Part shown: positions 45,681 to 63,114 of the stretch, in pieces
Numbering within the stretch: the first letter of the stretch is position 1
Layout: each line of letters opens with the position of its first letter
Source of the DNA: Colwellia sp.
GTDB taxonomy: Bacteria; Pseudomonadota; Gammaproteobacteria; Enterobacterales; Alteromonadaceae
Direction: 5' to 3'
Length of the DNA: 64,000 bases
Assembly: GCA_013215295.1 (NCBI GenBank)
Contig: JABSOZ010000006.1
Coordinates: forward strand, 1-64,000
Notes under the pieces: model-generated
Database searches by the model: none
What the model saw: only the letters and a program-made list of their open reading frames with translations
Told to the model about the DNA's origin: nothing
Position numbers and translations under genes: made by a program

Positions 45681-45685
45681 TATCA

Positions 45686-46318
45686 TTATTTTAAACCACA
45701 GCCGCGTAAAATCATGTCGGTTAAGAATGAAATAACATGTTCTACATCTTCTTCTTCATATTCTGCTCTATTCATGATTGTTAAAATTTGTGTTTCAAAG
45801 TCAGCATAGTGTTGTGTTGAAGACCAAATAAGAAATATCAAATGTATGGGATCAACATCTCGCATTTCACCATTATCTATCCATTTTTGGAAGAGTTGTG
45901 CTTTTTCTCTTACCCATTTTCGTTGATAGGTACGTGCAAAATCTTTTAAATGTTGCGCGCCTTGGATAATCTCCATGGCATAAATCTTTGATGATTCAGG
46001 GTGTTTGAATGACATTCTTACTTTTGCATCAATAAACTTTTCGATAGCCGCTTTAGGTCCATCTTCTGGGGTAATATCACCAATACCCTCATCCCACATT
46101 TGTAACGTATGTTCTAGCACGGCATGGTAAATATTTTCTTTATTCTTAAAATAGTAAAGTATATTGGCTTTAGGTAGACCCGCTCTATCTGCAATTGACT
46201 GCACGGTAGCGCCTTTATAGCCTTGTAAAACAAATTCAGTACTCGCCGCAATTAAAATTTTATGTTGGCTTTGAACTCGAATGTTCCCTGTTTTTTTTAT
46301 TTCTTTGTTATTTTTCAT
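45686..46318 (-). CDS. RutR-like TetR-family regulator
   Basis: A 210-aa repressor. The N-terminal helix-turn-helix (about 18-65, ILIAASTEFVLQGYKGATVQSIADRAGLPKANILYYF) and the C-terminal domain align well, from memory, with E. coli RutR, notably DPIHLIFLIWSSTQHYADF against DPQHLIFMIWASTQHYADF. RutR binds uracil or thymine and recognises TTGACCA-NN-TGGTCAA. Matching palindromes occur at 50222, 56361, 63087, 13100 and, weaker, at 46400 upstream of this gene. It is coupled to the downstream nuclease gene and likely controls the nucleoside locus. Confidence 0.9.
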   Translation of the reverse strand: MKNNKEIKKTGNIRVQSQHKILIAASTEFVLQGYKGATVQSIADRAGLPKANILYYFKNKENIYHAVLEHTLQMWDEGIGDITPEDGPKAAIEKFIDAKVRMSFKHPESSKIYAMEIIQGAQHLKDFARTYQRKWVREKAQLFQKWIDNGEMRDVDPIHLIFLIWSSTQHYADFETQILTIMNRAEYEEEDVEHVISFLTDMILRGCGLK

Positions 46319-46984
46319 AAAGTTGCTCTATATTTAGAATGCATAAACAAAACATTTCAAGTGAAATTGTTATTATTATTTTACTTTCACACTACCTGTT
46401 GACCATATAGTTAAGTTTTATGGTTTGTTAGAATCAAGCCTCTTTTTCAAAAATAACGAAGTGACAAATCTACATTTAGTAATGAAATTCCACTATAAAT
46501 GTTTACTCAATTATATGGAAGGGAACTTTGCCATACGGTGAGATATTTTATATATAGTACGTGTGTGCTATTTTCATGATTACCTCTTAAATAATGTAGT
46601 AACCACTTGTATTATATGCATTAAACTCATATCTTTGCTTTTTAGTTACTTACTGGTTGAACAGGTATATAACTAAAGAGCATAAGTATCGGATTATAAA
46701 TAATAATTTTTTATATAAAACTATCTTCATTATTAATTCCAGTGATAGCGTTTATTTCTTATTTATCTTATTGTTTATTAAGTGTATTTATTGATTCTGC
46801 TAATTCAGAGTTGGTCATATGTAATTTGATTTATAAAAAGTGTGAAAATATGTAATGAAAATGACATAAAAATCTGGTCTAATTTCCCTCGAAATATAAA
46901 AACAGAGCAACTGGTTAAGTTTTTTGGTTGCTAAAAAAAATAATAAGTAATCGACACTTTAAAAACATAATCAAGGAATAAAAG
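46319..46984. other. 666-bp divergent intergenic region, regulator/TonB receptor
   Basis: AT-rich spacer between the RutR-like gene and the TonB-dependent receptor. It carries a weak RutR-type palindrome at 46400-46413, an isolated TGGTTA half-site near 46912, and the receptor's AAGGAATAAAAG ribosome binding site. No gene is seen. Its length suggests complex control. Confidence 0.6.
46400..46413. promoter_or_regulatory. Weak RutR-type operator upstream of the regulator
   Basis: TGACCA-TA-TAGTTA: a perfect left half and a right half with two changes from TGGTCA. It lies 82 bp upstream of the regulator's start codon, a position suited to autoregulation. Confidence 0.45.
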
Positions 46985-49900
46985 ATGAACACGCATCGTC
47001 TCTCACTCATAACAGGCGCAGTAGTTTTAGCGCTTGGACTTTCTACATCAGCTATGGCTTCTGATACATCTTCCGGTATTAGAGGAAGTATTGTAAATTC
47101 GACAGGTGAAATTTCAGTTAATGCAAAAATTGAAATTTTACACGGACCATCTGGTACTAAAACGGTAACTAGATCAAATGACACGGGTAAATTCTCAAGT
47201 AAAGGTCTTCGTGTTGGCGGACCGTATACGATAAAAGTTACAGGTGAAAACGGTGTTAATGTATATAAAAATATTTACTTAACGTTAGGTGATACTTTCC
47301 GTTTAAATGCTGAATTAATATCTACTGACAACGTAGAACGTATTTCAGTTACAGGTAGTAATGTTTTTTCAAATAACATTGGCAGCAACAGTTATTTTAG
47401 CGCTGACGATATCACAAACTCCCCTAGCTTTAACCGTGACATTAAAGATATTGTTCGTAATAATCCGCTTGCAGTTTTATCTTCAAAAGATGGTGAATTA
47501 AGTGTTGCTGGTACTAACCCACGATTCAATAGTATTAGTGTTGACGGTATCGGTCAAAATGATGACTTTGGTTTGAACGCTAATGGCTACCCAACTACAC
47601 GCTCTCCAATTTCATTAGATGCTATTGAGCAAGTTACTATTGACGTAACTCCTTTCAATGCAAAAGATAGTGGTTTCCAAGGCGCAAAAATTAATGCTGT
47701 AACTAAATCAGGTACGAATACCTTGTCTGGTACATTCTTTTATGAAACACAAAACGATGACATGGCTGGCACACCTAAAAATAATACTATTGAAGATCCT
47801 ACCAAAAGGGAAGCTCCATTAGATTTTGACGAAACAACCTTTGGTGCAACGCTTGGTGGCGCATTTATAGAAGACGAATTGTTCTTTTTTGCTTCTTACG
47901 AATATTATGAAGCATCTTCAACAGTTGAGTGGGGACCAGATGGAGCCAATGTACCTAATCCAACACGTGCAAATCTTGCTGATGTTGAAGCAGTAAAACA
48001 AATAGCACGTGATGTTTACGGTGTAGAACCCGGTGACTGGAATGAAACACCTGCGATTGAAGATGAAAAAATATTATTAAAACTAGATTGGAACATAAAT
48101 GACGAGCACCGTGCTGCTTTTACTTACCAATATAGCAAAGGTAATAGTACGCGTAACCAGTCAAGTCACCCATATGAATTACGCTTATCATCTCATTGGT
48201 ACAACAGAACTGAAGAATTAAATAACTATGCATTTAAACTTTATTCTGATTGGAATGATGATTTATCAACACAATTTAGTTTAACTTACCTTGACAACCC
48301 AACGACTCAAGCATCATTAGGTGACTTTTCAGATACGGTTATTAAAGCGGATTCTGGTGATATCGCTATGGGTGCCGATCATTCTCGTCACTCAAATGAC
48401 TTACATAAAAAGACCTTTATCATGTCTTTAGATGGTGATTACTTGGTTGGTGATCATAGTTTAACGTTTGGTTATCAATTTAAACGTTTAGATATTTTTA
48501 ATTTATTCTTACAAAACACTAAAGGAGATTATGTATTTAATAGTATTGAAGATTTTGAGAATCAAATCGCCAGTTCAATTAAATATCAAAATACGACTAG
48601 CTTAGATCCTAATGATGCAGCAGCTTCATTTGTACGTGATGAACATGCATTTTATATTCATGATGAATGGATGTTTAATGACGAAATCACAATTGATATG
48701 GGTGTAAGGTATGAAATGTTGGCATCAAATGATAAGCCAATATTTAACGATCAAATGTTAGAACGTACTGGTTATGATAATACTGAAAACTTAGATGGTG
48801 TAGGTATTATATTACCACGATTTGGAATTAAGTGGGACGCAACTGAAGACCTTATTGTACGCGGTGGTGTAGGCCGTTATTCTGGTGGTCAACCGACTGT
48901 TTGGGTTTCAAATGCATACTCAAATCCTGGTGTTGGTATTGGTAAAGTTGACTTAAGAAATGGTTCATTTGAAAATACTGATATCTCTGGCCCTCGTCAA
49001 GAAGATATGGATTCCGTTGCTAACTCAGAAAGGTATGCAGATACAAACTTTACAGATCCTAATTTTGATTTACCGTCAGATTGGCGTTTCCAGATAGCGG
49101 CTGACTATCGATTTGATATTCCATTTTTAGGTGATAACTTTATGTTCACCGCTGAGTATTTGTATAAAAAAGAAGAAAACACAGCTTTTTGGCAAGATGC
49201 TAGTTTATTCGGTGATGAAGATGGAACAACTGCTGACGGCGGTCGTATTATTTACGATGATCCTGATTATAATGAAGATTTAATGTTAACCAATACTGAC
49301 AAAGCAGGGCGCTCTAAAATTTTTAGTGTCGTGTTGAGTAAAGATTGGGACAGTGGTGTAAGCTTAACCACTTCATACACTAATCAAGACATCACTAGTG
49401 CACATACAAGTTCAAGTGCAACGGCTGGTAGTAATTATGGTTATAATCCTGTTATCAATCGTAACGAAGCCATTGTAGGTCGTTCTGGTTTTGAAACTGA
49501 ACATAGGCTTGTTGTTAACTTAGGTTATGCAACTGAATTCGTTGCTGGTTATAAAACGAACATCAACTTATTCTTCGAACGAAAGTCAGGAAAACCAATA
49601 ACTTTCTATGCTGATGGTAGCCGTGGCGGCGACTTAAATGACCCTTACGGCTTGTTAAGTCCAGGTACTTATAACGATTCATTCTTACCTTATATCCCTA
49701 CACCGGGTGATGAAAATGTAACGTTCACTTCACCGGAAGATGAAGCTGAGTTTTATGAAGTAGTTAACAGTTTAGGTTTGGCTAAATATGCAGGCGGTTA
49801 TTTACCAAAAGGTGTTGCTACAACACCTTGGGTTACAACCCTTGATTTAAGTGTTCGTCAAGAAATCCCTGGATTTAGTGAAGATCATAAAGGAACCGTT

Positions 49901-50116
49901 TATTTCACTGTAGATAATCTATTAAATCTGATCGATAGCAGTAAAGGTAAGGTATACGGAAGTGATTTTGGAACGCAAGAATTAGTTCAGTTTACAATTG
50001 ACCCTGCAACTAGAAAATATCAATATGATAGACCTGGTTCAGATAGCTTAGATAATAAATTTTATACTACTGATTCAGCATGGCGTATAAAAGTAGGTGT
50101 TAGCTACAAGTTCTAA
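46985..50116 (+). CDS. TonB-dependent receptor with N-terminal carboxypeptidase-like domain (Oar type)
   Basis: A 1043-aa outer-membrane receptor. Signal peptide about 1-25 (ending AMA), a carboxypeptidase-regulatory-like beta domain (about 29-115, GIRGSIVNSTGEISVNAKIEIL), a plug (about 120-240, SVAGTNPRFNSISVDGIGQND) and a long beta barrel ending in the aromatic C-terminus VGVSYKF. Oar-type receptors import large ligands; given its neighbours, nucleosides or oligonucleotides are candidate ligands, as an inference. A terminator follows at 50141. Confidence 0.93.
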   Translation: MNTHRLSLITGAVVLALGLSTSAMASDTSSGIRGSIVNSTGEISVNAKIEILHGPSGTKTVTRSNDTGKFSSKGLRVGGPYTIKVTGENGVNVYKNIYLTLGDTFRLNAELISTDNVERISVTGSNVFSNNIGSNSYFSADDITNSPSFNRDIKDIVRNNPLAVLSSKDGELSVAGTNPRFNSISVDGIGQNDDFGLNANGYPTTRSPISLDAIEQVTIDVTPFNAKDSGFQGAKINAVTKSGTNTLSGTFFYETQNDDMAGTPKNNTIEDPTKREAPLDFDETTFGATLGGAFIEDELFFFASYEYYEASSTVEWGPDGANVPNPTRANLADVEAVKQIARDVYGVEPGDWNETPAIEDEKILLKLDWNINDEHRAAFTYQYSKGNSTRNQSSHPYELRLSSHWYNRTEELNNYAFKLYSDWNDDLSTQFSLTYLDNPTTQASLGDFSDTVIKADSGDIAMGADHSRHSNDLHKKTFIMSLDGDYLVGDHSLTFGYQFKRLDIFNLFLQNTKGDYVFNSIEDFENQIASSIKYQNTTSLDPNDAAASFVRDEHAFYIHDEWMFNDEITIDMGVRYEMLASNDKPIFNDQMLERTGYDNTENLDGVGIILPRFGIKWDATEDLIVRGGVGRYSGGQPTVWVSNAYSNPGVGIGKVDLRNGSFENTDISGPRQEDMDSVANSERYADTNFTDPNFDLPSDWRFQIAADYRFDIPFLGDNFMFTAEYLYKKEENTAFWQDASLFGDEDGTTADGGRIIYDDPDYNEDLMLTNTDKAGRSKIFSVVLSKDWDSGVSLTTSYTNQDITSAHTSSSATAGSNYGYNPVINRNEAIVGRSGFETEHRLVVNLGYATEFVAGYKTNINLFFERKSGKPITFYADGSRGGDLNDPYGLLSPGTYNDSFLPYIPTPGDENVTFTSPEDEAEFYEVVNSLGLAKYAGGYLPKGVATTPWVTTLDLSVRQEIPGFSEDHKGTVYFTVDNLLNLIDSSKGKVYGSDFGTQELVQFTIDPATRKYQYDRPGSDSLDNKFYTTDSAWRIKVGVSYKF

Positions 50117-50140
50117 AACAACTTTGCATAATTGAATGTC

Positions 50141-50171
50141 AAACCCTTTAGTTATGCTAAAGGGTTTTTTT
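50141..50171 (+). terminator. Terminator of the first TonB receptor
   Basis: Stem AAACCCTTTAG/CTAAAGGGTTT with loop TTATG followed by TTTT, 25 bp past the stop. Confidence 0.92.
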
Positions 50172-50221
50172 ATGCCATAAATTTCATTTTTGATTGATTA
50201 ATTCAATCAGCTTTAATTATT

Positions 50222-50235
50222 TGACCAAGTGGTCA
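50222..50235. promoter_or_regulatory. RutR-type operator upstream of cdd-deoA
   Basis: A perfect palindrome TGACCA-AG-TGGTCA, 47 bp before the cdd start, preceded by T as in the RutR consensus. A TATAGT at 50252-50257 could be the -10, so the operator would cover the -35 region and act by repression. Confidence 0.75.
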
Positions 50236-50282
50236 GGTATGTTATTCTTATTATAGTTTAACCCTATAAAATCTGGGATAGT

Positions 50283-50702
50283 ATGAAAAATAATACCTAT
50301 GAAATACCTGCCGCACTAAAAGCTGCAGCAAAAGAAGCTTACGGTAAAGCCTATGCACCTTATAGTCAATTCCATGTCGGTTCTGCAGCACTTACTACCC
50401 AAGGTAATATTGTGCAGGGTTGTAATGTAGAGAATGCATCTTACGGTCTAACGATTTGTGCAGAGCGTAATTGTATAGGTCATGCTGTTGCAAATGGTGA
50501 GCAAAGTTTCCAAATGATCGTAATTTATACAGAGCAAGATAAGTTAACGCCTCCGTGTGGAGCATGTCGGCAAGTCATCGCTGAATTTTTTGAACAATCA
50601 GCTCCAGTCATTGCTATTAACCATAAAGATGAACAACAAGTATGGACTGTTGCCCAACTGCTACCAGATGCATTTACACCAAAAGATTTATTGGAATTAT
50701 AA
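50283..50702 (+). CDS. cdd: Cytidine deaminase, small homotetrameric type
   Basis: A 139-aa zinc enzyme converting cytidine and deoxycytidine to uridine and deoxyuridine. The active-site signature NASYGLTICAERNCIG contains the zinc Cys and catalytic Glu, and PPCGACRQVIAEF holds the two other zinc Cys. This is the short tetrameric type, not the 294-aa dimer of E. coli. It is 12 bp upstream of deoA, one operon under the RutR-type operator at 50222. Confidence 0.96.
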   Translation: MKNNTYEIPAALKAAAKEAYGKAYAPYSQFHVGSAALTTQGNIVQGCNVENASYGLTICAERNCIGHAVANGEQSFQMIVIYTEQDKLTPPCGACRQVIAEFFEQSAPVIAINHKDEQQVWTVAQLLPDAFTPKDLLEL

Positions 50703-50714
50703 GGATTTACCATA

Positions 50715-52016
50715 ATGATGTTACCTCAAGAAATAATACGCATTAAACGTAATGGACAAACGCTTAATGATAGCCAGATTCAAAGTTTTGTTAATGGTTT
50801 AGTTGATGGCAGTTTTTCAGATAGTCAAGTTGGCGCGATGGCGATGGCCATTTTCCAAAAAGGAATGTCTGTTGACGAAAAAGTAACGCTAACGAAAGCG
50901 ATGATGAACTCGGGGGATGTACTCTCTTGGGACGGTTATGATGCTCCCATTGTTGATAAACACTCTACGGGAGGTGTTGGAGATAAGGTGAGTTTTATGC
51001 TGGCTGCAATCGTTTCTGCGTGTGGTGCCTTTGTACCTATGATAGCAGGTCGAGGACTTGGCCACACAGGCGGTACAGCAGACAAGTTGGAAAGTATTGC
51101 GGGTTTCAATGTCGAGCCAACAATAGGAGAGTTTAAGCGTATTGTAAAAGAAGTAGGTTTCGCTATCATTTCACAAACTGATAACTTGGCACCAGCAGAT
51201 AAACGTCTTTATGGTATTCGAGATGTCACCGCGACAGTTGAATCTATTCCATTAATTACAGCGTCTATTTTATCTAAAAAAATCGCTGCGGGTCTTGATA
51301 CTTTAGTCATGGATGTAAAAGTGGGTAACGGTGCAATGATGTCATCACTAGAAGATGCCAAAGCGCTTGCCGACAGTATTTCAAGTGTGGCCAATGGTGC
51401 AGGTGTTAAAACGCAAGCTATTATTACCGACATGAACCAGGTCTTAGGTACGAGTGCGGGTAATGCCATTGAAATGTATGAAACAGTAAAATATTTAACG
51501 GGTAAGCAACGAGAGCCACGTTTACATCAAGTGGTTAAAACATTAGCGAGTGCCATGTTAGTAAACACAGATTTAGCTACAGATGAACAAGATGCATACC
51601 TTAAAATAGATAAAGTACTTCACTCTGGCAAAGCAGCGGAGATATTTGAGCGTATGATAGCAGCGCTTGGTGGGCCAAAAGATTTTGTGGAAAATCCATG
51701 GGGTTCAATGAATAAAGCTGCTTTTATTATGGAAGTTAAAGCGAGTCAGCATGGTTATTTAGCACAAATGAATACGCGTGATGTCGGAATGTCTGTTGTC
51801 AGTTTAGGCGGTGGTAGAACAGCACCAGGGCAAAAAGTTGATCATACTGTTGGATTTGATCGAATTTTACCTTTGGGCGTTCAAGTAAATAGTGGCGAAG
51901 TTATTGCTCGAGTTCATGCTAGGGATGAAAATTCAGCGCTATTAGCTGCTCAACAATTTAATCAGGCAATTACATATTCCGAAGAAGCGCCTGAGTTAGC
52001 ACCGGTAATTTATTAA
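50715..52016 (+). CDS. deoA: Thymidine phosphorylase
   Basis: A 433-aa enzyme cleaving thymidine and deoxyuridine with phosphate to the free base and deoxyribose-1-phosphate. The signature VDKHSTGGVGDKVSFML (near 80-95) and IAGRGLGHTGGTADKLESI are present. Two consecutive ATGs start the frame, with AAGGA upstream. Its products thymine and uracil are the ligands known for RutR, which would make the pathway self-inducing. Confidence 0.97.
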   Translation: MMLPQEIIRIKRNGQTLNDSQIQSFVNGLVDGSFSDSQVGAMAMAIFQKGMSVDEKVTLTKAMMNSGDVLSWDGYDAPIVDKHSTGGVGDKVSFMLAAIVSACGAFVPMIAGRGLGHTGGTADKLESIAGFNVEPTIGEFKRIVKEVGFAIISQTDNLAPADKRLYGIRDVTATVESIPLITASILSKKIAAGLDTLVMDVKVGNGAMMSSLEDAKALADSISSVANGAGVKTQAIITDMNQVLGTSAGNAIEMYETVKYLTGKQREPRLHQVVKTLASAMLVNTDLATDEQDAYLKIDKVLHSGKAAEIFERMIAALGGPKDFVENPWGSMNKAAFIMEVKASQHGYLAQMNTRDVGMSVVSLGGGRTAPGQKVDHTVGFDRILPLGVQVNSGEVIARVHARDENSALLAAQQFNQAITYSEEAPELAPVIY

Positions 52017-52070
52017 GCAAACTCGCTTAAGATAATCGACTTAATATTCACTTGTCATGTCATTTGAAGA

Positions 52071-52112
52071 AAAAAGTCACTTGTTACTCAAAAGGTAATA
52101 AGTGACTTTTTA
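52071..52112. terminator. Bidirectional terminator between deoA and upp
   Basis: AAAAAGTCACTT/AAGTGACTTTTT stem enclosing a smaller GTTAC/GGTAAT-like hairpin, with A and T runs outside, between converging genes. Confidence 0.88.
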
Positions 52113-52129
52113 GTTTGATTAAATCAACA

Positions 52130-52756
52130 CTATAACGTACCGAAAATTTTATCCCCAGCATCACCTAAACCAGGCAATATATAACCTTGTTCGTTAAGTT
52201 TTTCATCTATCATACCAATGGTTAGTGTTACATCTGGATGTGCGTCTTTGATGACTTTAACGCCTTCTGGAGCAGCTACTAAAAATAGTGCAATAATGTT
52301 TTTACAGCCAGAAGCCTTTAATAAGTCTATGGTAGCTAAAGCCGTACCACCTGTTGCTAACATAGGATCAATCACAATAGCGGTTCTACTCTCTATATCA
52401 GAGATAATATTTTCATAATAGCTTTCAGGTTGCAATGTTTCTTCATTACGTTGTAGGCCTACAACACTTATTTTGGCACAAGGCAATACTAAAAGTGCTC
52501 CCTCAAGCATACCTAAACCCGCACGTAAAATCGGGACGAGAGTAGGCTGTTTATCTGCCAAGGTTGGCACCGAAATATCACCAGACCAACAGGTCATTGA
52601 CGTATTTTTTAAACTAAAATGTTGAGTTGCTTCAACGGTTAATAGCATTGAGATTTCTTTGGCTAACTCTCTAAAAGCCTTGACCGATATATCGTTATCT
52701 CGTAATAGACTAACTTTGTGTTTTACAAGTGGGTGAGCGCTTTCAAAAACAGGCAT
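52130..52756 (-). CDS. upp: Uracil phosphoribosyltransferase
   Basis: A 208-aa enzyme converting uracil and PRPP to UMP. Conserved blocks: HPLVKHKVSLLRD, VPILRAGLGMLEG, the PRPP-binding VIDPMLATGGTALATIDLLK and GLGDAGDKIFGT. Same length as E. coli Upp. It is the last gene of the leftward run udk-nupC-deoC-tdk-upp. Confidence 0.97.
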   Translation of the reverse strand: MPVFESAHPLVKHKVSLLRDNDISVKAFRELAKEISMLLTVEATQHFSLKNTSMTCWSGDISVPTLADKQPTLVPILRAGLGMLEGALLVLPCAKISVVGLQRNEETLQPESYYENIISDIESRTAIVIDPMLATGGTALATIDLLKASGCKNIIALFLVAAPEGVKVIKDAHPDVTLTIGMIDEKLNEQGYILPGLGDAGDKIFGTL

Positions 52757-52834: not shown

Positions 52835-53410
52835 TTACCAGACTAGTTTTTTAAAGTGAGCTCTACACAAAGGTTCATAACGTTCATTTCCGCCAACTTC
52901 TACCTGCTGACCACCTTTAACAGGTACACCGTTTTTATCTTGTCTGATGACAAAATTTGCTTTACGACCACAATGACAAATAGTTTTCAGTTCAACTAAC
53001 TTATCGGCCCAAGCGAGAAGGGCTGCACTACCGGAAAAAGTTTCACCTAAGAAGTCAGTCCTTATCCCGTAGGCTAAGACAGGAATGTGTAATAAATCTA
53101 CAACATCGGTGAGTTGTTTAACTTGTTCGGTAGAAAGAAACTGTGCTTCATCGATCAGTACACAATCAAGTTTAGTTTCTTGATGTTTCTTTTTAATGTC
53201 AGCCAGCATGTTACTGTCATCATCAAAAAGAAATGCATCTGCATCAATGCCTAAACGTGACGTAACTTTGCCTTGTGCAAATCTATCATCAATTTTTGCG
53301 GTATAAATAGCCGTTGTTAAACCGCGCTCTTTATAATTATAAGACGATTGAAGCAGGTGAGTAGATTTACCCGCATTCATTGATGAATAATAAAAATATA
53401 ATTGCGCCAT
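52835..53410 (-). CDS. tdk: Thymidine kinase
   Basis: A 191-aa type II thymidine kinase. The P-loop is [17 protein letters not shown] near residue 8-22, the Walker B region is [12 protein letters not shown], and the zinc lasso has CHCGRKANF and the late Cys in LCRAHF. It phosphorylates thymidine and deoxyuridine. It lies 24 bp downstream of deoC and about 78 bp upstream of upp. Confidence 0.97.
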
Positions 53411-53434: not shown

Positions 53435-54208
53435 TTAATAGCTGCTTGCTGACTTGCTTTCTGCACTGTGCCCCAGTGTAACAAGTAAACTGTTAAGTAA
53501 ACTACTTGCACCAAAACGAAAATGATTATGATCAGCCCAATCAACACCTAATATACTATCTGCAAGATCAAGATAAACAGCGGCATCTTCAGCATTTTTA
53601 ACACCACCAGCAGGTTTAAAGCCAACATTGATATTTTTGTTTTTAATGACTTCTAGCATTATTTTTGCAGCTTCAGGTGTTGCACTAACAGCAACTTTTC
53701 CTGTTGATGTTTTAATAAAGTCAGCACCCGCATTAATGGAAATTTCACTCGCTTGCTGAATAAGTTCCGCTGATTTCAATTCACCAGTTTCGATAATAAC
53801 TTTTAGCTTAGCAATATCACCACAGGCTTGCTTACATACTTTAACCATATCAAAACCGATATCAGGGTTACCTTGCATCAATGCTTTGTAAGGGAACACC
53901 AAATCTACTTCGTCAGCGCCATAAGCGACAGCTGCTTGAGTTTCAGCTAAAGCAATATCTATATCATCATTGCCGTGGGGAAAGTTTGTTACGGTAGCGA
54001 TTTTAATTTGCGGTGTTTGCTGAGCTTTTAATATCTTTTTCGCCATAGGTACAAAACGCGGGTAGATACAAATAGCCGCTGTAGAACCCGCTGAAGATTT
54101 AGCTTGTTGACATAAATTGATAATATCTTGTTCTGTTTCGCTGTCAGTAAGACTGGTTAAATCCATTAAGGAAAGTGCACGTTGAGCGATAAATTTAAGA
54201 TCAGACAT
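53435..54208 (-). CDS. deoC: Deoxyribose-phosphate aldolase
   Basis: A 257-aa class I aldolase splitting deoxyribose-5-phosphate to acetaldehyde and glyceraldehyde-3-phosphate. The Schiff-base Lys is in [18 protein letters not shown], the second Lys in [12 protein letters not shown], and [14 protein letters not shown] is conserved. The frame extends to 54265 into nupC, but the ATG at 54208 with GAGG upstream gives the normal length (E. coli 259 aa). Confidence 0.96.
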
Positions 54209-54230: not shown

Positions 54231-55475
54231 CTATAAAGCAATGAATACACCAGCGATGGCTGCACTCATTAAATTGGCTAAAGTAGCTGCCATCATAGCG
54301 TGCATACCAAGTTTGGCGATATCACGTCGACGACTAGGAGCCATTGAACCAATGCCACCAAGCAAAATAGCAATTGAAGATAAATTAGCAAATCCACAAA
54401 GAGCGAATGTAACAATTGCTTGAGTAGCAGGTGAAAGTGTATCTTTAATTTCAACAAAATTTACATAAGCAAAAAACTCATTAACAACCACTTTTTGACC
54501 AATAAAACTTCCGGCTTGAAGCATTTCGTTCACCGGTACGCCAATAATATAAGCGAAGGGTGCAAATATATAACCTAAAATGAGTTCAATAGTAATATTG
54601 TCATATCCGAACAATCCACTAATACCGCCAACAATCGTATTGAGAAGGGCGATTAATGCAATAAAAGCAAGTAACATTGCGCCAACATTAACAGCAAGTT
54701 TCAACCCTGAAGCAGCGCCAGATGCAGCAGCATCAATAACGTTAGCGGGTTTGTCTTCACCTTCATCAAAGTCTATAGAATTTTGCACAATTTTTTCATG
54801 CTCAGTTTCAGGGTAAATAATTTTAGCCATTAATAAGCCACCCGGTGCGGCCATGAAAGAAGCCGCTATTAAGTATTTTAGTTCAATACCTAACCCGGCA
54901 TAACCCGCCATGATTGAACCTGCAACAGATGCTAATCCACCCACCATAATTGCGAATAACTCTGATTGCGTCATTTTAGCGATGTATGGACGAATAACTA
55001 ACGGGGCTTCAGTTTGGCCAACAAATATATTTGCCGTTGCTGAAAGTGATTCGGGTTTACTGGTTTGTAATAGCTTTTGCAAACTACCGCCAATAATTTT
55101 AATAACCCATTGCATAATGCCTAGATAATAAAGTACGGCGATTAAAGACGAGAAGAAAATAATATTAGGTAAAACACGAATGGCAAAAACAAAACCAACG
55201 CCATTATCGAACATGGCATCTGTACCTAGACCGCCGAACAAGAAGTTTATGCCGACTTTTGCACTATCAATAACGCTTTGCACACTCGAAGTAATAGTGG
55301 TTAATACGTCTTTTCCAAAAGGAACATATAAAACGAAAGCGCCCATAATTAATTGTAAGAGAAACGCAAAGCCTACTGTTCGAAAGTTAATGTTTTTTCG
55401 GCTTTTCGAAAGACCGTAGGCAATAGCTAATAAAACAAATATGCCTATTACCCCTCTATATGCAGACAAATCCAT
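54231..55475 (-). CDS. nupC: Concentrative nucleoside transporter (NupC/CNT family)
   Basis: A 414-aa inner-membrane symporter with about 9-10 helices. CNT signatures include [55 protein letters not shown] (the nucleoside and cation site) and [19 protein letters not shown]. It takes up nucleosides with H+ or Na+. It follows udk by 45 bp and precedes deoC by 22 bp, supplying substrates for the locus. Confidence 0.95.
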
Positions 55476-55520: not shown

Positions 55521-56171
55521 TTATTTTTGTAGCGGTAACTTTGATAACTGACGAATTTTTGCTTTTAGTACTTCTATCGCCATTCTATTTTTGCCACCAC
55601 GTGTGATGACTATATCAGCCCAAGCTTTAGAAGGTTCAATAAATTGGTAATACATAGGTCTAACCGTTTCTAAATATTGACTTGTTACAGACTCAACACT
55701 TCTATTTCGCTCAATTAAGTCACGTTTTATGCGTCTAACTAGGCAAATATCAAGCGGTGTATCCATATAGACCTTAATATCAAATTGGTCTCTAAGTGCT
55801 TTATTGGAAAGTAATAAAATACCTTCAACCAGTACGATTTTTGTCGGTGTAAAAACACGTGTTTCTACGGTACGCGTATGTGTTTTGTAACAATATATAG
55901 GAACGTCTATTGATTTATTTTCAGTAATATCTTTTAGGTGCTGGGTTAATAAGTCATGTTCGAAGGCACTTGGATTATCATAATTGGTTTGTTCACGTTC
56001 TGACATGGACAAATGAGATTGATCGCGGTAATAAGAATCTTCACTTAGAATAGAAATTCCTTCTTCACCTAATTCATCTATAAGCTCGTCATGAATAGTT
56101 TGTGCAAAAAGGGTTTTCCCTGATGCAGATGGACCTGTGATTGTGATTATTGTCGGTTTATTATCTTTCAA
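55521..56171 (-). CDS. udk: Uridine/cytidine kinase
   Basis: A 216-aa kinase phosphorylating uridine and cytidine. The P-loop is TGPSASGKTLFAQTI at residues 11-25; ILSEDSYYRDQ and NYDNPSAFEHDLL are family motifs, as is RRIKRDLIERNRSVESV. Length matches E. coli Udk (213 aa). First gene of the leftward salvage operon, with a promoter under the RutR-type operator at 56361. Confidence 0.95.
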   Translation of the reverse strand: MKDNKPTIITITGPSASGKTLFAQTIHDELIDELGEEGISILSEDSYYRDQSHLSMSEREQTNYDNPSAFEHDLLTQHLKDITENKSIDVPIYCYKTHTRTVETRVFTPTKIVLVEGILLLSNKALRDQFDIKVYMDTPLDICLVRRIKRDLIERNRSVESVTSQYLETVRPMYYQFIEPSKAWADIVITRGGKNRMAIEVLKAKIRQLSKLPLQK

Positions 56172-56346: not shown

Positions 56347-56375
56347 AAATTATCACAACTTGACCATGTGGTCAT
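56347..56375. promoter_or_regulatory. Divergent udk/deoB control region with RutR-type operator
   Basis: A perfect palindrome TGACCA-TG-TGGTCA at 56361-56374 in the 257-bp spacer. On the minus strand it overlaps -35 ATGACC with -10 TAATTT 17 bp away (56352-56347), a promoter for udk. Rightward, TTGACC at 56360 with TACTAT at 56385 (19 bp) is a weaker candidate for deoB. One operator may therefore control both directions. Confidence 0.72.
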
Positions 56376-56428: not shown

Positions 56429-57667
56429 ATGACACGCGCAATAGTTTTAGTGATTGATAGTTTTGGTATAGGTTATTCTGCTGATGCTGCAGAGTTTGGT
56501 GATGTTGGTGCAAATACCCTTGCTAATCTGGCTAAAGCATATTTCGACGAAACAGGAAAAGCCATTAACTTACCCAATCTTGCAAAGTTAGGATTATTTA
56601 AAGCCTGTCATGAAGCATCTAATACCGATTTCCCTAAGCAGGGCGGTGTCCCGGAAAAAGGGGCTTATGGTTATATGCAGGAAATAAGCACAGGAAAAGA
56701 TACGCCAAGTGGACATTGGGAAATGGCCGGAGTTCCGGTACTTTTTGATTGGGATTATTTCACCAATAAGGAAAATGCATTTTCTCAAGATTTGATGGAT
56801 AAAATTAATAAAGCAACGGGATTTACCGGCATGTTAGGTAATTGTCATGCTTCTGGTACTGTTATTTTAGATAAATTAGGTGAAGAGCATATTAAGTCTG
56901 GTTTACCTATATGTTATACCTCAGCAGACAGTGTTTTTCAGGTAGCAGCTCATGAAGAGCATTTCGGTTTAGATAATCTATATAAATACTGTGAAACGGT
57001 AAGAGCAGAACTCGGAGATTTAAATATCGGCCGCGTTATCGCTAGACCTTTTATTGGCGATAACTCAGATAATTTTGCTCGTACAGGTAATCGTCGTGAT
57101 TATTCAGTGTTACCACCAGCACCCACTGTGCTTGATAAAATCTTTGATGCAGGAACCCATGTAATTAGTGTTGGTAAAATAGCTGACATTTTTGCTCATC
57201 AAGGGATCAGTGAAAAAACGAAAGCAACAGGTTTAGATGCCTTGTTAGACGCAACGATTGAACATATTAAGTCAGCTCAAGATAATTCGTTGATTTTTAC
57301 CAATTTAGTTAACTTCGATCAAGACTTTGGACATCGACGTGATCCGATAGGATATGCTCAAGAGCTTGAAGCTTTTGATTTACGTTTACCCGAAGTGCTC
57401 AATGCGATGACAGATAATGACATCGTGTTTTTAACCGCAGACCATGGTTGTGATCCAACCTGGCCAGGAAGCGACCATACTCGTGAATACGTTCCTATTT
57501 TAGCTTACCATCACAATATATCTTCTATAAATTTAGGTGAACGTAAAACCTTCGCAGATTTAGGTCAAACCATTGCCGAATTGTTTAACGTTGAAGCAAT
57601 GGACTACGGCACAAGTTTTATGGCCGACTTATACAATAAACAAAGCAATAAACAAAGCAATAAGTAA
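56429..57667 (+). CDS. deoB: Phosphopentomutase
   Basis: A 412-aa alkaline-phosphatase-superfamily mutase interconverting (deoxy)ribose-1- and -5-phosphate. Metal motifs: [28 protein letters not shown] (with the phosphorylated Thr), [15 protein letters not shown] and [26 protein letters not shown] lies before the ATG. The C-terminus ends [10 protein letters not shown] from a short tandem DNA repeat (57639-57664), a probable recent slippage addition. It links DeoA/DeoD products to DeoC. Confidence 0.97.
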
Positions 57668-57744
57668 TTAAACTTTAAAGACAATATTTCTACTACACTA
57701 TTTAAAATATATAAAAACAAATAACCCCCCTTGGGAGATAACAA

Positions 57745-60009
57745 ATGAAAATGTTTAAACAAAGCGCACTAGCACTCTGTGTGCAGGCGTCAATATTTGC
57801 CAGCGTTGCAAGTATTTCAACGAGTTCTTTTGCTGAAGATGGTGTGAAAGAAAAAATTACTGGTATCGAAGTTATAGAAGTAACTGCTCGTAAACGTACT
57901 GAAAACATTAAAGATGTACCTATTTCAATTTCAGCGATTACGGCTAAAAAATTAGAGGTTCTAGGATCTGCAGGAATGGATGTACGTTCGTTATCTGCAA
58001 AGGTGCCTAGTTTATTAATTGAATCTTCATTTGGACGAACTTTTCCACGTTTTTATATTCGCGGTTTAGGTAATACAGATTTTGATTTACTCGCTTCTCA
58101 ACCTGTTTCATTGATTTACGATGATGTCGTTTTAGAAAATGCTTTAACTAAAGGCATGCCTATGTTCGATATTGAACGCGTTGAAGTATTACGTGGCCCG
58201 CAAGGAACATTATTTGGACGTAATACAACCGCTGGTATTATTAAAGTTCAATCTAAAAAACCCACACAAGATTTTGATGCAACGGTATCTACCTCTTATG
58301 GTACTTATGGTTCAACCGATTTTCGTCTTGCGATTGGTGGTGGTTTAACCGACACGTTATCTGCACGAGTGTCGTTATTACAACAAGATAGAGATGATTG
58401 GATAGACAATAAAGCGCCAGGTTTTGAAAAAGAAGATGAGTTAGGTGGCTACGGTGAAACCGCAGGAAGAATTCAACTTCTATGGGAACCAAATGATGAG
58501 TTCTCAGCTTTATTTAATTATCACTTTAGAGATGCCGATGCCGATGCTCGTGTTTTTAGAGCAAACATCATTAAGCCGGGTACAAATGACTTAGTAGATG
58601 ATTTTGATCGTGAAGTCGTTTATCAAGATGCTGCATCAAGAAATAATCAAACTATTGAAATGAAAGGCTCTAGCTTAAAATTATCTTATGACATGGGCAG
58701 CCATACCTTAACTTCTGTAACAGGTTATGAATCTGCTGAAATGTTTTCCGTTGGTGATATTGATGGGGGTTATGGCGCCTCATTCTTAGGTGATTATATG
58801 GGACCTGGATTTATTCCATTCCCATCAGAAACTGGCGCTAAAATGCCAGATCATTCTCAGATTACCCAAGAAATTAGATTATCTAGCAATGATCTTGGTG
58901 ATTTTGATTATCAATTCGGTTTTTTCTATTTTGATGAAGATTTAACTATCCACAATTTAAGTTTTGATACTTTAGGTGGCGGTGCACAAAATGGCATTGC
59001 TATTCAAAATATGGAAACAACCGCGTGGGCTGTTTTTGCTTCATTGGACTTTGAGTTATCAGATGATTTAGGCATAACTGCTGGTATCCGTTATTCAGAT
59101 GATGAACGTGTTTGGGATGGAACTTTAGTTCAATCACCGTTCGGCGCACCTGGTTTCAGTGAAAACACGACGGTTGATGATTCACAAATCAGCGGTGATA
59201 TCAGTGTTAACTACAAAATGAATGATGAAGTAAATCTTTATGCCCGAGTAGCAAAAGGCTACAGAGCGCCAAGTATTCAAGGTCGTAGTTTATTATTTTC
59301 TGCATCACATACAACGGCTAAATCAGAATTAGTAACATCAATTGAATCAGGTTTTAAATCTACCTTTTTAGATAATACTGCACGTATTGACGGTTCAGTA
59401 TTTTATTATGTTGTTGATGATCAACAATTAACAGCAGTAGGCGGCACTGGTAATGTTGCAAGTTTACTTAATGCTGACAAAGCTGTTGGTTATGGTTTTG
59501 AATTAGACTCAGAATTTTGGGCAACTGAAAACTTGGTCTTTGGTGCTAGCTTGAGCTACAACCACACTGAATTACAAGATGACACTATTTCTGTTGCAGG
59601 GTGTGGTGCTAATTGTACTATCACAGATCCTTTAAATAGTGATGGCAGAGTTATTATTGATGGTAACTCACTTCCACAGTCTCCAGAATGGATTGGTAAC
59701 TTAAGTGCTCGTTGGACAAAAGAAATTGGTGATGGTGAATTATACGTTTATACCGATTGGTCTTATCGTAGCGAAGTAAGCTTTTTCTTATATGAGTCTA
59801 AAGAATTTACAGGTGACCCAATATTAGAAGGTGGTTTACGTGTTGGTTATGAGTGGGATGGTGACGATGTAGAATATGAAGTTGCTGCTTTTAGCCGAAA
59901 CATTCTTGATGAAGAAAAGCTAACCGGTGCCATTGATTTTAATAATTTAACTGGTTATGTCAATGAACCACGTTTCTTTGGCGTAGAATTTAAAGCTAAC
60001 TTCTTTTAA
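57745..60009 (+). CDS. TonB-dependent receptor within the nucleoside locus
   Basis: A 754-aa outer-membrane receptor. Signal peptide about 1-30 (ending SFAEDG), TonB box region GIEVIEVTARKR, plug (VPISISAITAKKLEV...RFYIRGLGNTDFD, IERVEVLRGPQGTLFGRNTTAG) and a beta barrel ending in FFGVEFKANFF. Good GGGAG ribosome binding site. It starts 77 bp after deoB with no terminator in between, so co-transcription is likely. Nucleoside or nucleotide import is inferred from context only. Confidence 0.94.
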   Translation: MKMFKQSALALCVQASIFASVASISTSSFAEDGVKEKITGIEVIEVTARKRTENIKDVPISISAITAKKLEVLGSAGMDVRSLSAKVPSLLIESSFGRTFPRFYIRGLGNTDFDLLASQPVSLIYDDVVLENALTKGMPMFDIERVEVLRGPQGTLFGRNTTAGIIKVQSKKPTQDFDATVSTSYGTYGSTDFRLAIGGGLTDTLSARVSLLQQDRDDWIDNKAPGFEKEDELGGYGETAGRIQLLWEPNDEFSALFNYHFRDADADARVFRANIIKPGTNDLVDDFDREVVYQDAASRNNQTIEMKGSSLKLSYDMGSHTLTSVTGYESAEMFSVGDIDGGYGASFLGDYMGPGFIPFPSETGAKMPDHSQITQEIRLSSNDLGDFDYQFGFFYFDEDLTIHNLSFDTLGGGAQNGIAIQNMETTAWAVFASLDFELSDDLGITAGIRYSDDERVWDGTLVQSPFGAPGFSENTTVDDSQISGDISVNYKMNDEVNLYARVAKGYRAPSIQGRSLLFSASHTTAKSELVTSIESGFKSTFLDNTARIDGSVFYYVVDDQQLTAVGGTGNVASLLNADKAVGYGFELDSEFWATENLVFGASLSYNHTELQDDTISVAGCGANCTITDPLNSDGRVIIDGNSLPQSPEWIGNLSARWTKEIGDGELYVYTDWSYRSEVSFFLYESKEFTGDPILEGGLRVGYEWDGDDVEYEVAAFSRNILDEEKLTGAIDFNNLTGYVNEPRFFGVEFKANFF

Positions 60010-60037
60010 AGTTAAATCTGAAAAATAAGTGATTAAT

Positions 60038-60068
60038 AAAAAGGGGTAGCAATAGGCTACCCCTTTTT
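60038..60068. terminator. Bidirectional terminator between the TonB receptor and deoD
   Basis: AAAAAGGGGTAGC/GCTACCCCTTTTT stem around AATAG, between converging genes, with A and T runs on the outside. Confidence 0.92.
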
Positions 60069-60093
60069 ATGTTCAGGAAGAACAGTTAATATA

Positions 60094-60798
60094 TTATATT
60101 AAACTTTCTAACGTTAATTCCATCATGTCTTTAAAGGTTGTTTCACGTTCATCAGCCGTTGTTTGTTCGCCTGTTTTAATATGATCGCTTACCGTTAATA
60201 CCGCCAATGCTTTTTTACCGTATTCCGCAGCAACGCCATAAAGACCTGCAGCTTCCATTTCAACGGCTAAAATCCCATATTTCTCCATCGTAGCAAACAT
60301 TTCTGGTTGTGGTGTATAAAATAGGTCTGCCGTGAATATGTTACCCACTCGAACGTCTTGATTTAATCGTTCAGCGGTATCAACAACACTTTTTAACAGT
60401 GAAAAGTCAGCACATGCTGCAAAATCAACATTATGAAAACGCTGTCTATTAACATTAGAGTCTGTGCTTGCGGCCATTCCAATGATGATATCACGAACTT
60501 TAATATCATCGCGAACGGCTCCACAAGAACCGATACGAATAATACTTTCAACACCGTAGTCTTTATAAAGTTCAGTGGCGTAAATAGAAACACTTGGAAT
60601 GCCCATGCCTGAGCCCATCACTGAAATAGGCTTGCCTTTATAAGTACCCGTGTAGCCAAACATGTTACGAACACGCGTAACACATTTTACGTTTTCTAAG
60701 AAATTGTCAGCAATGTATTTGGCTCTAAGCGGATCGCCTGGCATTAATACCGTTTTTGCGAAATCGCCTTCTTGAGCTTCAATATGTGGAGTTGGCAT
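60094..60798 (-). CDS. deoD: Purine nucleoside phosphorylase, DeoD type
   Basis: A 234-aa hexameric-type phosphorylase releasing purine bases from nucleosides. [30 protein letters not shown] at the N-terminus, [17 protein letters not shown], and the catalytic Asp in [11 protein letters not shown] are typical. E. coli DeoD is 239 aa. It lies downstream of add on the same strand with a 194-bp spacer in which I see no RutR-type box. Confidence 0.97.
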
Positions 60799-60992
60799 AA
60801 GAGTTATCCTTTATTTTTTAAGTGTAACTCAGTAAGTTTCTAGCCGAGCTGATGAAATCAAACTGCTATCAAGGATTTTTTACTGAAATTTTGTTTATAA
60901 CGACATTTTTTATCGCTTGAACGTTAATGTGGTTATGATAATACTAAGTGAAGTGACGATCAATTATCGATTAATAACTTACCTCAATTCTT

Positions 60993-61988
60993 TTAGATTT
61001 TTAGCTGTCGTAAACTTTCTTTTTCTTTATCTGATAAGAAACTCATTTCGATAGCATTATGTTGTAATTGTGTAATTTGCTTTTCACTGAGTTTAAGTAA
61101 ATTGGTGGCAAGATTAAATTCATCTTTAAGTTCTATATTTTCAACCGCTGGATCATCAGTATTTAGGCACACATTCAGTCCATTTTCTAAAAATGTTTTA
61201 ATGGGATGGTTGCTCAAGTCTTTTATAGTGCCTGTTTGATAATTTGATGTCAGGCATGACTCAATGCCAATTTGATGTTTAAGCATATAATCCATGAGCT
61301 TTTGATCTTTAACACAAGCTACGCCATGGCCGATTCTTGTTGCGCCAAGTTTTTCTATGGCATGCCAGACACTTTCTGGTCCCGCAGCTTCACCTGCATG
61401 AACCGTTATTTGTAAACCAGCATCTGATGCCTTTTTAAAGTGACGTTCGAATAAATCACCTGGAAAATTGTACTCATCACCCGCTAAATCTAGCGCTGTA
61501 ATATTATCTTTATGCGCTAATATTGCATTAAGTTCAGTTTCGCAATTTTCTACACCAAAAGTACGACTAAGAATGCCAATTAAATTAATTTTTGTCGGAT
61601 ATTTATCACACCCTTGTTTAATACCTTCAATGATTGCTTCAACAACACCTTCAATAGGAAGTTGATGTGTCATCGCGATATAAAAAGGAGAAAATCGTAA
61701 TTCTGCGTAATCAATATTAGCAAGATAAGCATCTTCAACATTTTCAAAACCAATACGTACAACATCATCTAATGAAGACAGTACTTTGACTCCCCAATCT
61801 AATTTCTTCAAAAAAGCTAAAAGATCAGCTTCATTATTCGTGATCTTAATATGAGGTAAGAAGTCTTCATAATTCGTTTCAGGTAACTCAATGTTGTTCT
61901 TTTTCGCTAATTGCCAAACAGTTTTAGGGCGAATGTTGCCGTCTAAATGACGATGAAGGTCGATAAGTGGGAGTTGCTTGTTATGCAT
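60993..61988 (-). CDS. add: Adenosine deaminase
   Basis: A 331-aa zinc hydrolase converting adenosine and deoxyadenosine to inosine forms. Metal and catalytic residues: LIDLHRHLDGNIRP (two zinc His), TVHAGEAAGPES (His and catalytic Glu), GHGVAC and NTDDPAV (Asp pair). Same size as E. coli Add (333 aa). It provides substrate for DeoD. Confidence 0.96.
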   Translation of the reverse strand: MHNKQLPLIDLHRHLDGNIRPKTVWQLAKKNNIELPETNYEDFLPHIKITNNEADLLAFLKKLDWGVKVLSSLDDVVRIGFENVEDAYLANIDYAELRFSPFYIAMTHQLPIEGVVEAIIEGIKQGCDKYPTKINLIGILSRTFGVENCETELNAILAHKDNITALDLAGDEYNFPGDLFERHFKKASDAGLQITVHAGEAAGPESVWHAIEKLGATRIGHGVACVKDQKLMDYMLKHQIGIESCLTSNYQTGTIKDLSNHPIKTFLENGLNVCLNTDDPAVENIELKDEFNLATNLLKLSEKQITQLQHNAIEMSFLSDKEKESLRQLKI

Positions 61989-62010
61989 GGGGAGTATTGT
62001 CCTGAGAATA

Positions 62011-62041
62011 TAAAAAGTTGCTAGTAGATAACACTAGCAAC
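62011..62041 (-). terminator. Terminator after the second secreted nuclease
   Basis: GTTGCTAGT/ACTAGCAAC stem followed on the minus strand by TTTTTAT, between the nuclease stop (62105) and the add start (61988). Confidence 0.82.
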
Positions 62042-62104
62042 TGTAGATGGCTATTATTTATTTTAGCTTAAAATTATTATTGTGCATTGTAGATTCAAAG
62101 CCAA

Positions 62105-63010
62105 TTAGAGCGCTATTTTAACCGAAATAGGGCAGTGATCAGTTAATGAACGAGAGAGTTCTTTCGTGTATTTTTCTTTAAAGACGAGCTGTTCAAATGA
62201 ATCGTCTAGGTACATGCTTTTAGCACTTGGGTTAAAAACAATATGATCTATATAGTCTTTATAATAACCACCCCAACAATCAGAGTTCTTTGTTGCAGTA
62301 GGTGTCCATAGGGCTTCATTACCTTCGTCATCTAATGCTTGCCACAAACCTTGATCTTCAGCATATTTATTAGATATGTCTTGTGAGAAACGACGATTAA
62401 AATCACCAAGAACAACAAAAGCTTTATTCTCTTTTGCCTGTTTGTCTACCCAACGTTCCAGTGGTTCTATTTGTTTACTGAGCGTTGAACATGCTTGTTT
62501 GCGTCTAACTTCTTTGTCTGAAGTACTTGGCATCATAGCAACACTTTTACTATCGAGAGGGTCAGTAAAACAGCCTGATTTCAAATGTACCACAAGGAGT
62601 TTCAATTCTTTACCATTGCGAGATAAGGTTAAATCCATGCCATGTCTTACACGTGTAACATCTAGATCTTTATATTCTTTAGCAATAACGGTTAAACCCG
62701 CTGATTTTTTAACAGCCACACCCACTCGTTGTACCCAATCTTTTGTGGAAAAGTAGAAATCGTATTCGTTGCCAAAAACTTTTTGAGCCCATTCGCCATT
62801 TTCAACTTCTTGAAGCGCAATTACATCTGCATCGAGCTGCTTGGCATACGCTGCTAATTGTTTATAGTCAGCGGATTTTCGTTCATTATATTCATGAGAG
62901 CCTAACCAAGCTATATTCCATGAAGCGACTTTTAGCTCTTGTGAGTAAGTAGGTGAAACATACATTAAGCTAAATAGTAAACTAGCAGTTGTTAATATTG
63001 GTTTTTGCAT
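62105..63010 (-). CDS. Secreted endonuclease/exonuclease/phosphatase-family nuclease
   Basis: A 301-aa protein with a signal peptide (about 1-23, ending TYSQ). EEP motifs: LKVASWNIAWLG, VIALQEVENGEW (metal Glu), LLVVHLKSGCF, VVLGDFNRRFSQ and LTDHCPISVKI (Asp-His). It contains several Cys able to form disulphides, fitting an exported enzyme. It is divergent from the phosphoribosyltransferase, with a RutR-type box in the spacer. Distinct in size and sequence from the 398-aa paralogue at 44484. Confidence 0.9.
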   Translation of the reverse strand: MQKPILTTASLLFSLMYVSPTYSQELKVASWNIAWLGSHEYNERKSADYKQLAAYAKQLDADVIALQEVENGEWAQKVFGNEYDFYFSTKDWVQRVGVAVKKSAGLTVIAKEYKDLDVTRVRHGMDLTLSRNGKELKLLVVHLKSGCFTDPLDSKSVAMMPSTSDKEVRRKQACSTLSKQIEPLERWVDKQAKENKAFVVLGDFNRRFSQDISNKYAEDQGLWQALDDEGNEALWTPTATKNSDCWGGYYKDYIDHIVFNPSAKSMYLDDSFEQLVFKEKYTKELSRSLTDHCPISVKIAL

Positions 63011-63085
63011 TAATACTTCTCTTAGTTAAACTCATTGTAGTTTGAGCACAGGTAAATAAAAAATTGAATTCTTTGAATAATTTAC

Positions 63086-63114
63086 TTAACCATTCGGTCA
63101 AGAATTGATATAAT
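63086..63114. promoter_or_regulatory. Divergent nuclease/phosphoribosyltransferase promoter with RutR-type operator
   Basis: The palindrome CTTAACCATTCGGTCAAG (63085-63102) has core TAACCA-TT-CGGTCA at 63087-63100, with extra matching flanks. Rightward, -35 TTAACC (63086-63091), 17-bp spacer and a consensus -10 TATAAT (63109-63114) serve the phosphoribosyltransferase gene. Leftward, TTGACC (63101-63096) could be the -35 of the nuclease gene. Confidence 0.72.

Follow-up and report, generated by a model that had tools for sequence, protein, structure and literature searches.

Which regulator governs the genes with which a marine Colwellia strain would feed on DNA, and is that regulator RutR? 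The question is raised by a 64,000-nt stretch of DNA from Colwellia sp. (GCA_013215295.1, contig JABSOZ010000006.1; G000:C49:1-64000), here called the window, which belongs to a genome of 5.77 Mb in 52 contigs. Between 43 and 64 kb the window carries genes for using DNA (nucleases, a phosphatase, outer-membrane proteins, and nucleoside catabolism and salvage), and among them, at 45686..46318 on the minus strand, lies the gene for TetR1, a 210-aa RutR-like (TetR_C_3) protein and presumed repressor. E. coli RutR senses uracil and thymine, and its consensus operator is TTGACCA-NN-TGGTCAA. An initial annotation had placed RutR-type operators on nucleoside and DNA catabolism genes of the window, a proposal backed by a site matrix, by conservation in relatives and by co-occurrence with the regulator. 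It is highly probable, taking the comparative evidence as a whole, that TetR1 is a RutR-family repressor of a DNA and nucleoside regulon, acting through TGACCA-NN-TGGTCA palindromes (CCA-type boxes). This predicted regulon is well conserved, and the annotation mis-sized rather than misread it: its kind was right, and its extent is wider than stated, taking in a 2-oxoglutarate/Fe(II) (2OG) oxygenase gene, a second cdd-deoA-deoB operon, outer-membrane protein genes and perhaps an endonuclease I.

The box, TGACCANNTGGTCA, is exact, as annotated, at 50222..50235 (upstream of cdd-deoA) and at 56361..56374 (between the divergent udk-nupC-deoC-tdk-upp and deoB genes). Two other sites had been called near-perfect (63087..63100, between a nuclease gene and a phosphoribosyltransferase (PRTase) gene) and weak (46400..46413, between tetR1 and an outer-membrane protein gene). 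Both are conserved and stand as sites, but the distinction does not lie in the core, because each has 2 mismatches out of 12. The list of four was also incomplete, in that the third-best site of the window, 13100..13113, with a single mismatch and ~50 bp upstream of the 2OG oxygenase gene, had been overlooked. A matrix built from 58 sites in the cdd and deoB promoters of other genomes, with one 97% identical relative excluded, scores 26.1 at 56361, 24.9 at 50222, 23.0 at 13100, 20.8 at 63087 and 18.5 at 46400; the sixth site in the window scores 9.1, and the top score in 30 shuffled windows was 19.1. The 46400 site, with 0.03 sites of such a score expected per window, is borderline by score and therefore rests on its conservation. 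Boxes with up to three mismatches number 34 in the window versus 20.9 expected, and 0 of 100 shuffles reach 34.

A genome-wide scan, which the initial annotation had proposed as a check, places the best sites before nucleoside genes. Three sites are exact, versus one for a reversed-pattern control, and all three precede nucleoside operons: 50222, 56361 and C49:111943, the last before the second cdd-deoA-deoB operon. Just these best sites stand out, since at up to one mismatch the control gives 16 sites versus 19 for the box. Five of the 19 lie upstream of genes (the three exact sites, 13100 and 150485); the other 14, 13 of them intragenic and one between convergent genes, were set aside. An extended consensus of 16 specified bases has six genome sites at up to two mismatches, one of which is inside a gene, the other five lying on one contig, within ~100 kb, before genes of the nucleoside cluster; three mismatches give 30 sites versus 13 in the control. 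A weaker CCA-type box was also seen at C49:148310, ~136 bp upstream of an Endonuclease_1 gene (C49:146552-148174; L021:8552-10174) that is putatively secreted and lies beside a purine cluster, and the site at L247:12784 is similarly placed.

Relatives with a TetR1-like regulator have boxes at the corresponding promoters, those of cdd, udk/deoB, tetR and the oxygenase gene. The conservation sample comprised 73 named loci with a TetR1-like gene (two of them, L203 and L204, without a firm place in the tree), overlapping a set of 118 genomes of the family, and counted a box with up to two mismatches within 250 bp of a gene start. Such a box precedes cdd in 49 of 52 loci (34 exact), deoB in 16/16 and udk in 19/19, as well as tetR1 in 33/73 and the outer-membrane protein gene in 12/64; it is found in none of 169 regions upstream of the internal genes deoA, upp, tdk, deoC and nupC. 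For the gap between tetR1 and the outer-membrane protein gene, a box with up to two mismatches is present in 27 of the 33 other clade-A genomes (those with a regulator of the TetR1 clade) whose gap was in hand, which is the denominator of all gap counts here.

The 118 family genomes divide into 39 with a clade-A regulator, 28 with other RutR-like genes only and 51 with none. Of the 39, 21 have a further intact RutR-like gene (E<=1e-15) and 18 do not, two of the 18 being just 80% complete. A box at the start of cdd or its operon was found in 29 of 34 clade-A genomes examined, and two more overlap the extrapolated start. By class, it is present in 14/18 genomes with clade A only, 15/16 (of 21) with clade A and a paralogue, 0/2 with a paralogue only and 2/23 with neither. 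Among deoA-bearing genomes without clade A this amounts to 2/25; both exceptions are 84-85% complete and come from genera whose other members carry clade A, and none of the 22 high-completeness family genomes without clade A has such a box within 250 bp. Exact boxes per genome average 2.86 with clade A and a paralogue, 1.06 with clade A only, 1.25 with other RutR-like genes only and 0.55 with neither (reversed pattern, 0.11-0.43).

What kind of regulator is TetR1? Its C-terminal domain matches PF08362 at 154.1 bits (gathering score 25) and its N-terminal domain TetR_N at 43.8 bits (gathering score 24). The description of TetR1 as a RutR-like TetR protein, and the STQHYADF block said to be shared with E. 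coli RutR, are borne out by the top PDB matches by sequence, which are E. coli RutR, and by the predicted fold: the model (pLDDT 88.5) retrieves RutR structures at Foldseek ranks 1-8 with TM scores of 0.79-0.87, the next different protein reaching 0.72. The nearest named relative, at 97%, is found in a Colwellia. TetR1 nevertheless misses the cut-offs of both RutR equivalog models, TIGR03613 (166.5 versus 368 bits, or 45%) and NF011584 (142.7 versus 230 bits, or 62%), and in the tree it falls in clade A, apart from E. coli RutR and from the RutR-like clades B1 and B2 of the same taxonomic family; the placement of E. coli RutR itself (89/77, on a long branch) was not used. RutA has no match at E<=0.001 across the whole host genome, and no rut genes surround tetR1 by reading. 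A true RutR orthologue serving the rut pathway is thus ruled out by the two missed cut-offs, the missing RutA and the separate clade, and TetR1 is best described, from its sequence, as a RutR paralogue with a predicted DNA and nucleoside regulon. The annotation had RutR governing nucleoside breakdown "rather than, or as well as," the rut pathway; "rather than" survives, and the identity as RutR equivalog does not. No dihydropyrimidinase exceeds its cut-off in the genome either (the sole strong family match, under the cut-off, is an allantoinase), and since RutA and dihydropyrimidinase are both without a match of that standing, uracil is probably salvaged by the Upp of the cluster.

The ligand is where the most serious rival arises. 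Uracil is contacted in RutR by W77, Y97, W167, Q171 and Q179, according to the accessible text of PMC10891134, and TetR1 keeps four of these five residues, Y97 being replaced by F. Within clade A, W77, Q171 and Q179 are kept in 36/36 proteins and W167 in 35/36, and position 97 is F in 33/36. Release of TetR1 by uracil or thymine is plausible. It is also possible, though well short of an even chance, that TetR1 controls the genes and responds to a nucleoside, a deoxyribose phosphate or a purine base instead. The exchange at Y97 would suit such a ligand, and the purine-linked paralogues described below have all five contacts, so that the pocket residues are not diagnostic of the ligand; conservation of the other four contacts and the presence in the cluster of deoA (which makes uracil and thymine) and upp (which uses uracil) speak against such a ligand.

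A second rival concerns the protein rather than the ligand. The host genome encodes another RutR-like protein, TetR2 (clade B1; C49:145805-146452), whose gene is divergent from the purine cluster deoD2-xdhA-xdhB-xdhC-allantoinase. The annotation had foreseen that a second paralogue might explain the sites; the paralogue exists, and the boxes mostly persist without it. That TetR2 binds the window boxes and TetR1 acts elsewhere is improbable, although the two proteins share genome and family, G008 (L236) has a clade-B1 gene next to an exact CCA-type box in its add-cdd gap, and in 4 of the 5 loci read from clade-B2 genomes, which belong to other genera, exact CCA-type boxes occur at xdhA/tetR2. 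Boxes are retained in most of the 18 genomes in which no intact paralogue was found, at the tetR1 gap (13/17), the cdd gap (13/15), udk-deoB (6/7) and the oxygenase gene (13/16), and TetR2 is therefore unlikely to hold the window boxes in place. Moreover, helix residue K52 of TetR1 is R in 9/9 aligned clade-B1 proteins, and the promoters next to TetR2 and its clade-B1 relatives carry a different palindrome. The paralogue was accordingly judged an unlikely cause of the window sites. Separately, L248 (G025:C31; a same-genus genome retaining clade A and window-type boxes) has a RutR-like gene broken by stops.

The intergenic region of TetR2 contains the CAC-type palindrome TGACAC-NN-GTGTCA, and an exact TGACACNNGTGTCA stands 70-90 bp before the xdh operon in 6/6 clade-B1 loci with the operon start in hand; the window has no CAC-type site at up to two mismatches. 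A single consensus shared by both paralogues was therefore dropped for clade B1. Across 34 clade-A loci (641 kb), CAC-type sites with up to one mismatch number 7 versus 1 for a rearranged control. Six of the seven lie outside mapped genes, in five genomes that all have a paralogue, at deoB/udk or outer-membrane protein genes; the seventh is inside a gene of an A-only genome. In the host, the two box types stand side by side before the second cdd-deoA-deoB operon (0 and 1 mismatch) and at the promoter of a second outer-membrane protein (1 and 2 mismatches). Box type does not track the protein clades, because clade-B2 regulators sit beside exact CCA-type boxes, and for the same reason the CAC type is best taken as a change within clade B1. 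The xdhA starts of L315 and L316, whose second RutR-like genes are nearer TetR1 than TetR2 and were not placed in the tree, have neither box type at up to one mismatch. The simplest reading is of two insulated sister regulators that would have a few promoters in common.

How might TetR1 act on these promoters? The 50222 box holds the -35 of a possible cdd-deoA promoter (TTGACC-16-TATTCT) and the 63087 box that of a possible promoter toward the PRTase gene (TTAACC-17-TATAAT), an arrangement that fits repression by occlusion, and a -10 with up to two mismatches is found toward cdd in 36/57 cases versus 21/57 in the opposite direction. That the palindromes are kept merely as -35 (TTGACC) elements, or for another, unrelated regulator, is very improbable despite the hexamer-like left half and the suitable -10 spacing at cdd and PRTase, as the right half TGGTCA, which a -35 does not need and on whose conservation that role was judged unlikely, is nearly as conserved as the left, no box lies within 250 bp of the cdd or operon start in 20/20 high-completeness genomes in which no RutR-like gene was found or in 2/2 with only other RutR-like genes, and exact boxes are several times denser where clade A and a paralogue occur than where neither does.

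In the favored model, we infer that a TetR1 dimer binds the CCA-type palindromes and represses the promoters of genes for degrading DNA outside the cell, for uptake, and for the catabolism and salvage of pyrimidine (deoxy)nucleosides. The regulon would comprise tetR1-nuclease-phosphatase, the outer-membrane protein gene, cdd-deoA, udk-nupC-deoC-tdk-upp, deoB, the nuclease and PRTase genes and the 2OG oxygenase gene, with the box covering the -35 at least at cdd and PRTase. When DNA or nucleosides are present, a pyrimidine of the pathway, most likely uracil or thymine made by DeoA, could enter the RutR-like pocket and release TetR1. TetR2 would act likewise on the purine (xdh/allantoin) genes through CAC-type palindromes, and both regulators may share the second cdd-deoA-deoB operon, deoB in some relatives and the second outer-membrane protein gene.

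Several observations weigh against this model, in addition to the CCA-type boxes beside clade-B1 and clade-B2 genes. The co-occurrence of boxes and regulator is confounded by ancestry, because cluster, regulator and boxes are inherited together, so that it represents related genomes rather than independent replication. Two genomes, G012 and G032, lack the cdd box, and G048, which is 85% complete and has no RutR-like gene detected, has two exact boxes far upstream. Promoter-like pairs number 64 in the window scan versus 65 in shuffles, and a -10 toward udk is found in only 2/33 cases, versus 11 in the opposite direction. Next to tetR2 itself, an exact CAC-type box is seen in G000 and G069 only. 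Finally, the oxygenase box is present in just 3/8 genomes that have both clade A and a paralogue. The two CCA-type boxes of G048 (L222) lie 126 bp apart, 320-445 bp upstream of a deoA-like gene and hence outside the 250-bp test.

What, then, does the 2OG oxygenase do in such a regulon? Its gene (12207..13049, minus strand; PF03171, PF14226) probably starts at the ATG at 13046. A near relative of the protein in the PDB is 3on7 (423 bits), an "oxidoreductase, iron/ascorbate family" whose structure comes without a named substrate, and the HxD...H...R residues are present in 50/50 oxygenase sequences. Of the 118 family genomes, 93 have an orthologue at 55% identity or more, 18 just a 34-39% relative and 7 none; in a class-wide draw, 37/369 genomes have a match at E<=1e-60. 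A box with up to two mismatches precedes the gene in 17/28 clade-A genomes examined versus 1/20 picked genomes without clade A, and in 18/30 loci when the 28 are counted with G076 and G048 (1/2), both of which are 84-85% complete with no clade A found. In 15 of 20 picked relatives without a TetR1-like regulator, the oxygenase gene comes third in a udk-nupC-2OG unit, and deoA has no match in those 15 genomes. Outside clade A, close orthologues are found in 3/22 genomes with deoA versus 51/54 without it, three genomes of 84-85% completeness being left out of the contrast, while 36/39 clade-A genomes have both genes. The oxygenase is therefore largely complementary to deoA outside clade A, in a contrast that is strongly confounded by ancestry. 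Uridine phosphorylase is not the explanation of most genomes without deoA, since it exceeds its cut-off in only 5/118 genomes.

In other gammaproteobacterial families, 20 regions were compared. The upstream neighbours include a nucleoside hydrolase gene in one and a DusA-type dihydrouridine synthase gene in five, and in many they are unrelated. The DusA-type genes lie directly upstream of the oxygenase orthologue in L282, L284, L285, L286 and L290, four of them scanned and confirmed and that of L286 identified by reading. One region has a transporter permease pair, a nucleoside ABC transporter by reading, which Pfam assigns only to a general permease family, and several (e.g., L273, L275, L288, L289) have no nucleoside neighbour. 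The best lead connects the enzyme with free pyrimidine nucleosides, and since genes for RNA modification neighbour the oxygenase, modified uridines are a serious alternative as substrates. It is a tentative proposal, a little short of an even chance, that this is an undescribed oxygenase acting on free pyrimidine (deoxy)nucleosides or on a modified uridine nucleoside and drawn into the clade-A DNA-catabolism regulon. The enzyme could, for instance, hydroxylate the sugar of deoxyuridine or thymidine and so stand in for thymidine phosphorylase, or it could recover uridine for Udk from modified nucleosides of RNA turnover (dihydrouridine, 2'-O-methyl nucleosides). A different 2OG family demethylates 2'-O-methyl nucleosides, as far as the available text of PMC12709175 goes. 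The fungal thymine dioxygenase (thymine-7-hydroxylase, 5c3o) belongs to the same broad 2OG-Fe(II) superfamily and has a nucleobase substrate; its match to the oxygenase is weak (E 1.7e-15) and ranks below several others, the near relative being 3on7.

The genes of the cluster are arranged as follows. On the minus strand, an alkaline phosphatase gene (43035..44438; PF00245) and one for a putative secreted endonuclease/exonuclease/phosphatase (44484..45686; PF03372), which abuts tetR1, probably form one transcription unit with tetR1, as conserved adjacency suggests. On the plus strand, a large outer-membrane beta-barrel (46985..50116; PF25183, CarboxypepD_reg), Oar/TonB-receptor-like by reading and presumed to take up DNA fragments or nucleosides, is followed by cdd cytidine deaminase (50283..50702; TIGR01354) and deoA thymidine phosphorylase (50715..52016; TIGR02643). 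The minus strand then encodes upp uracil phosphoribosyltransferase (52130..52756; TIGR01091), tdk thymidine kinase (52835..53410; NF003300), deoC deoxyribose-phosphate aldolase (53435..54208; TIGR00126), nupC nucleoside transporter (54231..55475; TIGR00804) and udk uridine kinase (55521..56171; TIGR00235), and the plus strand deoB phosphopentomutase (56429..57667; TIGR01696) with a TonB-dependent receptor downstream (57745..60009; PF00593, PF07715). Next come, on the minus strand, deoD purine-nucleoside phosphorylase (60094..60798; TIGR00107), add adenosine deaminase (60993..61988; TIGR01430) and a second putative secreted endonuclease/exonuclease-family nuclease (62105..63010; PF03372), and on the plus strand the PRTase (63155..63712; PF00156). 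All the TIGR and NF models named for these genes are matched over their cut-offs. Elsewhere in the window, a protein with a HicB-like antitoxin domain (42102-42509; PF15919) is encoded next to the phosphatase gene, with a gene read as peptidase E-like on its other side. In the first 4300 nt a repeat of 42-120 nt occurs 8-10 times, at intervals of 361-1249 nt and with small open reading frames between the copies, an arrangement that by reading resembles a chromosomal integron cassette array; just past it, at 4675-5628, is an IS30 family transposase gene (NF033563 over cut-off).

If the proposed regulon is real, a uracil-type sensor would have been turned from the scavenging of nitrogen (Rut) to the use of DNA as food. 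TetR1 and TetR2 would then offer a test case of paralogue insulation, with candidate operators one swap per half-site apart (TGACCA versus TGACAC) and a few promoters carrying both types within one cell. For a widespread oxygenase of known structure (3on7), its place in the regulon and the order of the genes likewise suggest a role in nucleoside metabolism, and this lead could be worth more than the regulator.

The open-licence literature searched, which did not extend to the supplementary tables of PMC5343134, yielded no description of the TetR1 regulon or of the udk-nupC-2OG unit. RutR regulons for pyrimidine catabolism, with ~11 genes per genome and taxon-specific substitutions in the motif, have been predicted in 68 proteobacterial genomes, and the portion of that text available names neither nucleoside or DNA-degradation targets nor a paralogue split with different operators; overlap with the TetR1 regulon is possible (PMC5343134). 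E. coli RutR (TIGR03613; PDB 3loc, 4jyk) resembles TetR1 in its TetR_C_3 fold, in the stacking tryptophans and Q171/Q179 of the uracil pocket, and in its type of palindrome, the E. coli rutA-rutR site being 3/12 bases off the box. On the other hand, TetR1 is 33-34% identical to it over the aligned model, has F for Y97, scores below both equivalog cut-offs, and comes from a genome without RutA and a cluster for DNA and nucleoside breakdown. A second comparison is with DeoR and CytR, which in E. coli repress the deo and nup genes and are relieved by nucleosides or pathway intermediates. The catabolic genes are the same as those assigned here to TetR1, whereas the repressor families and their operators are unrelated.

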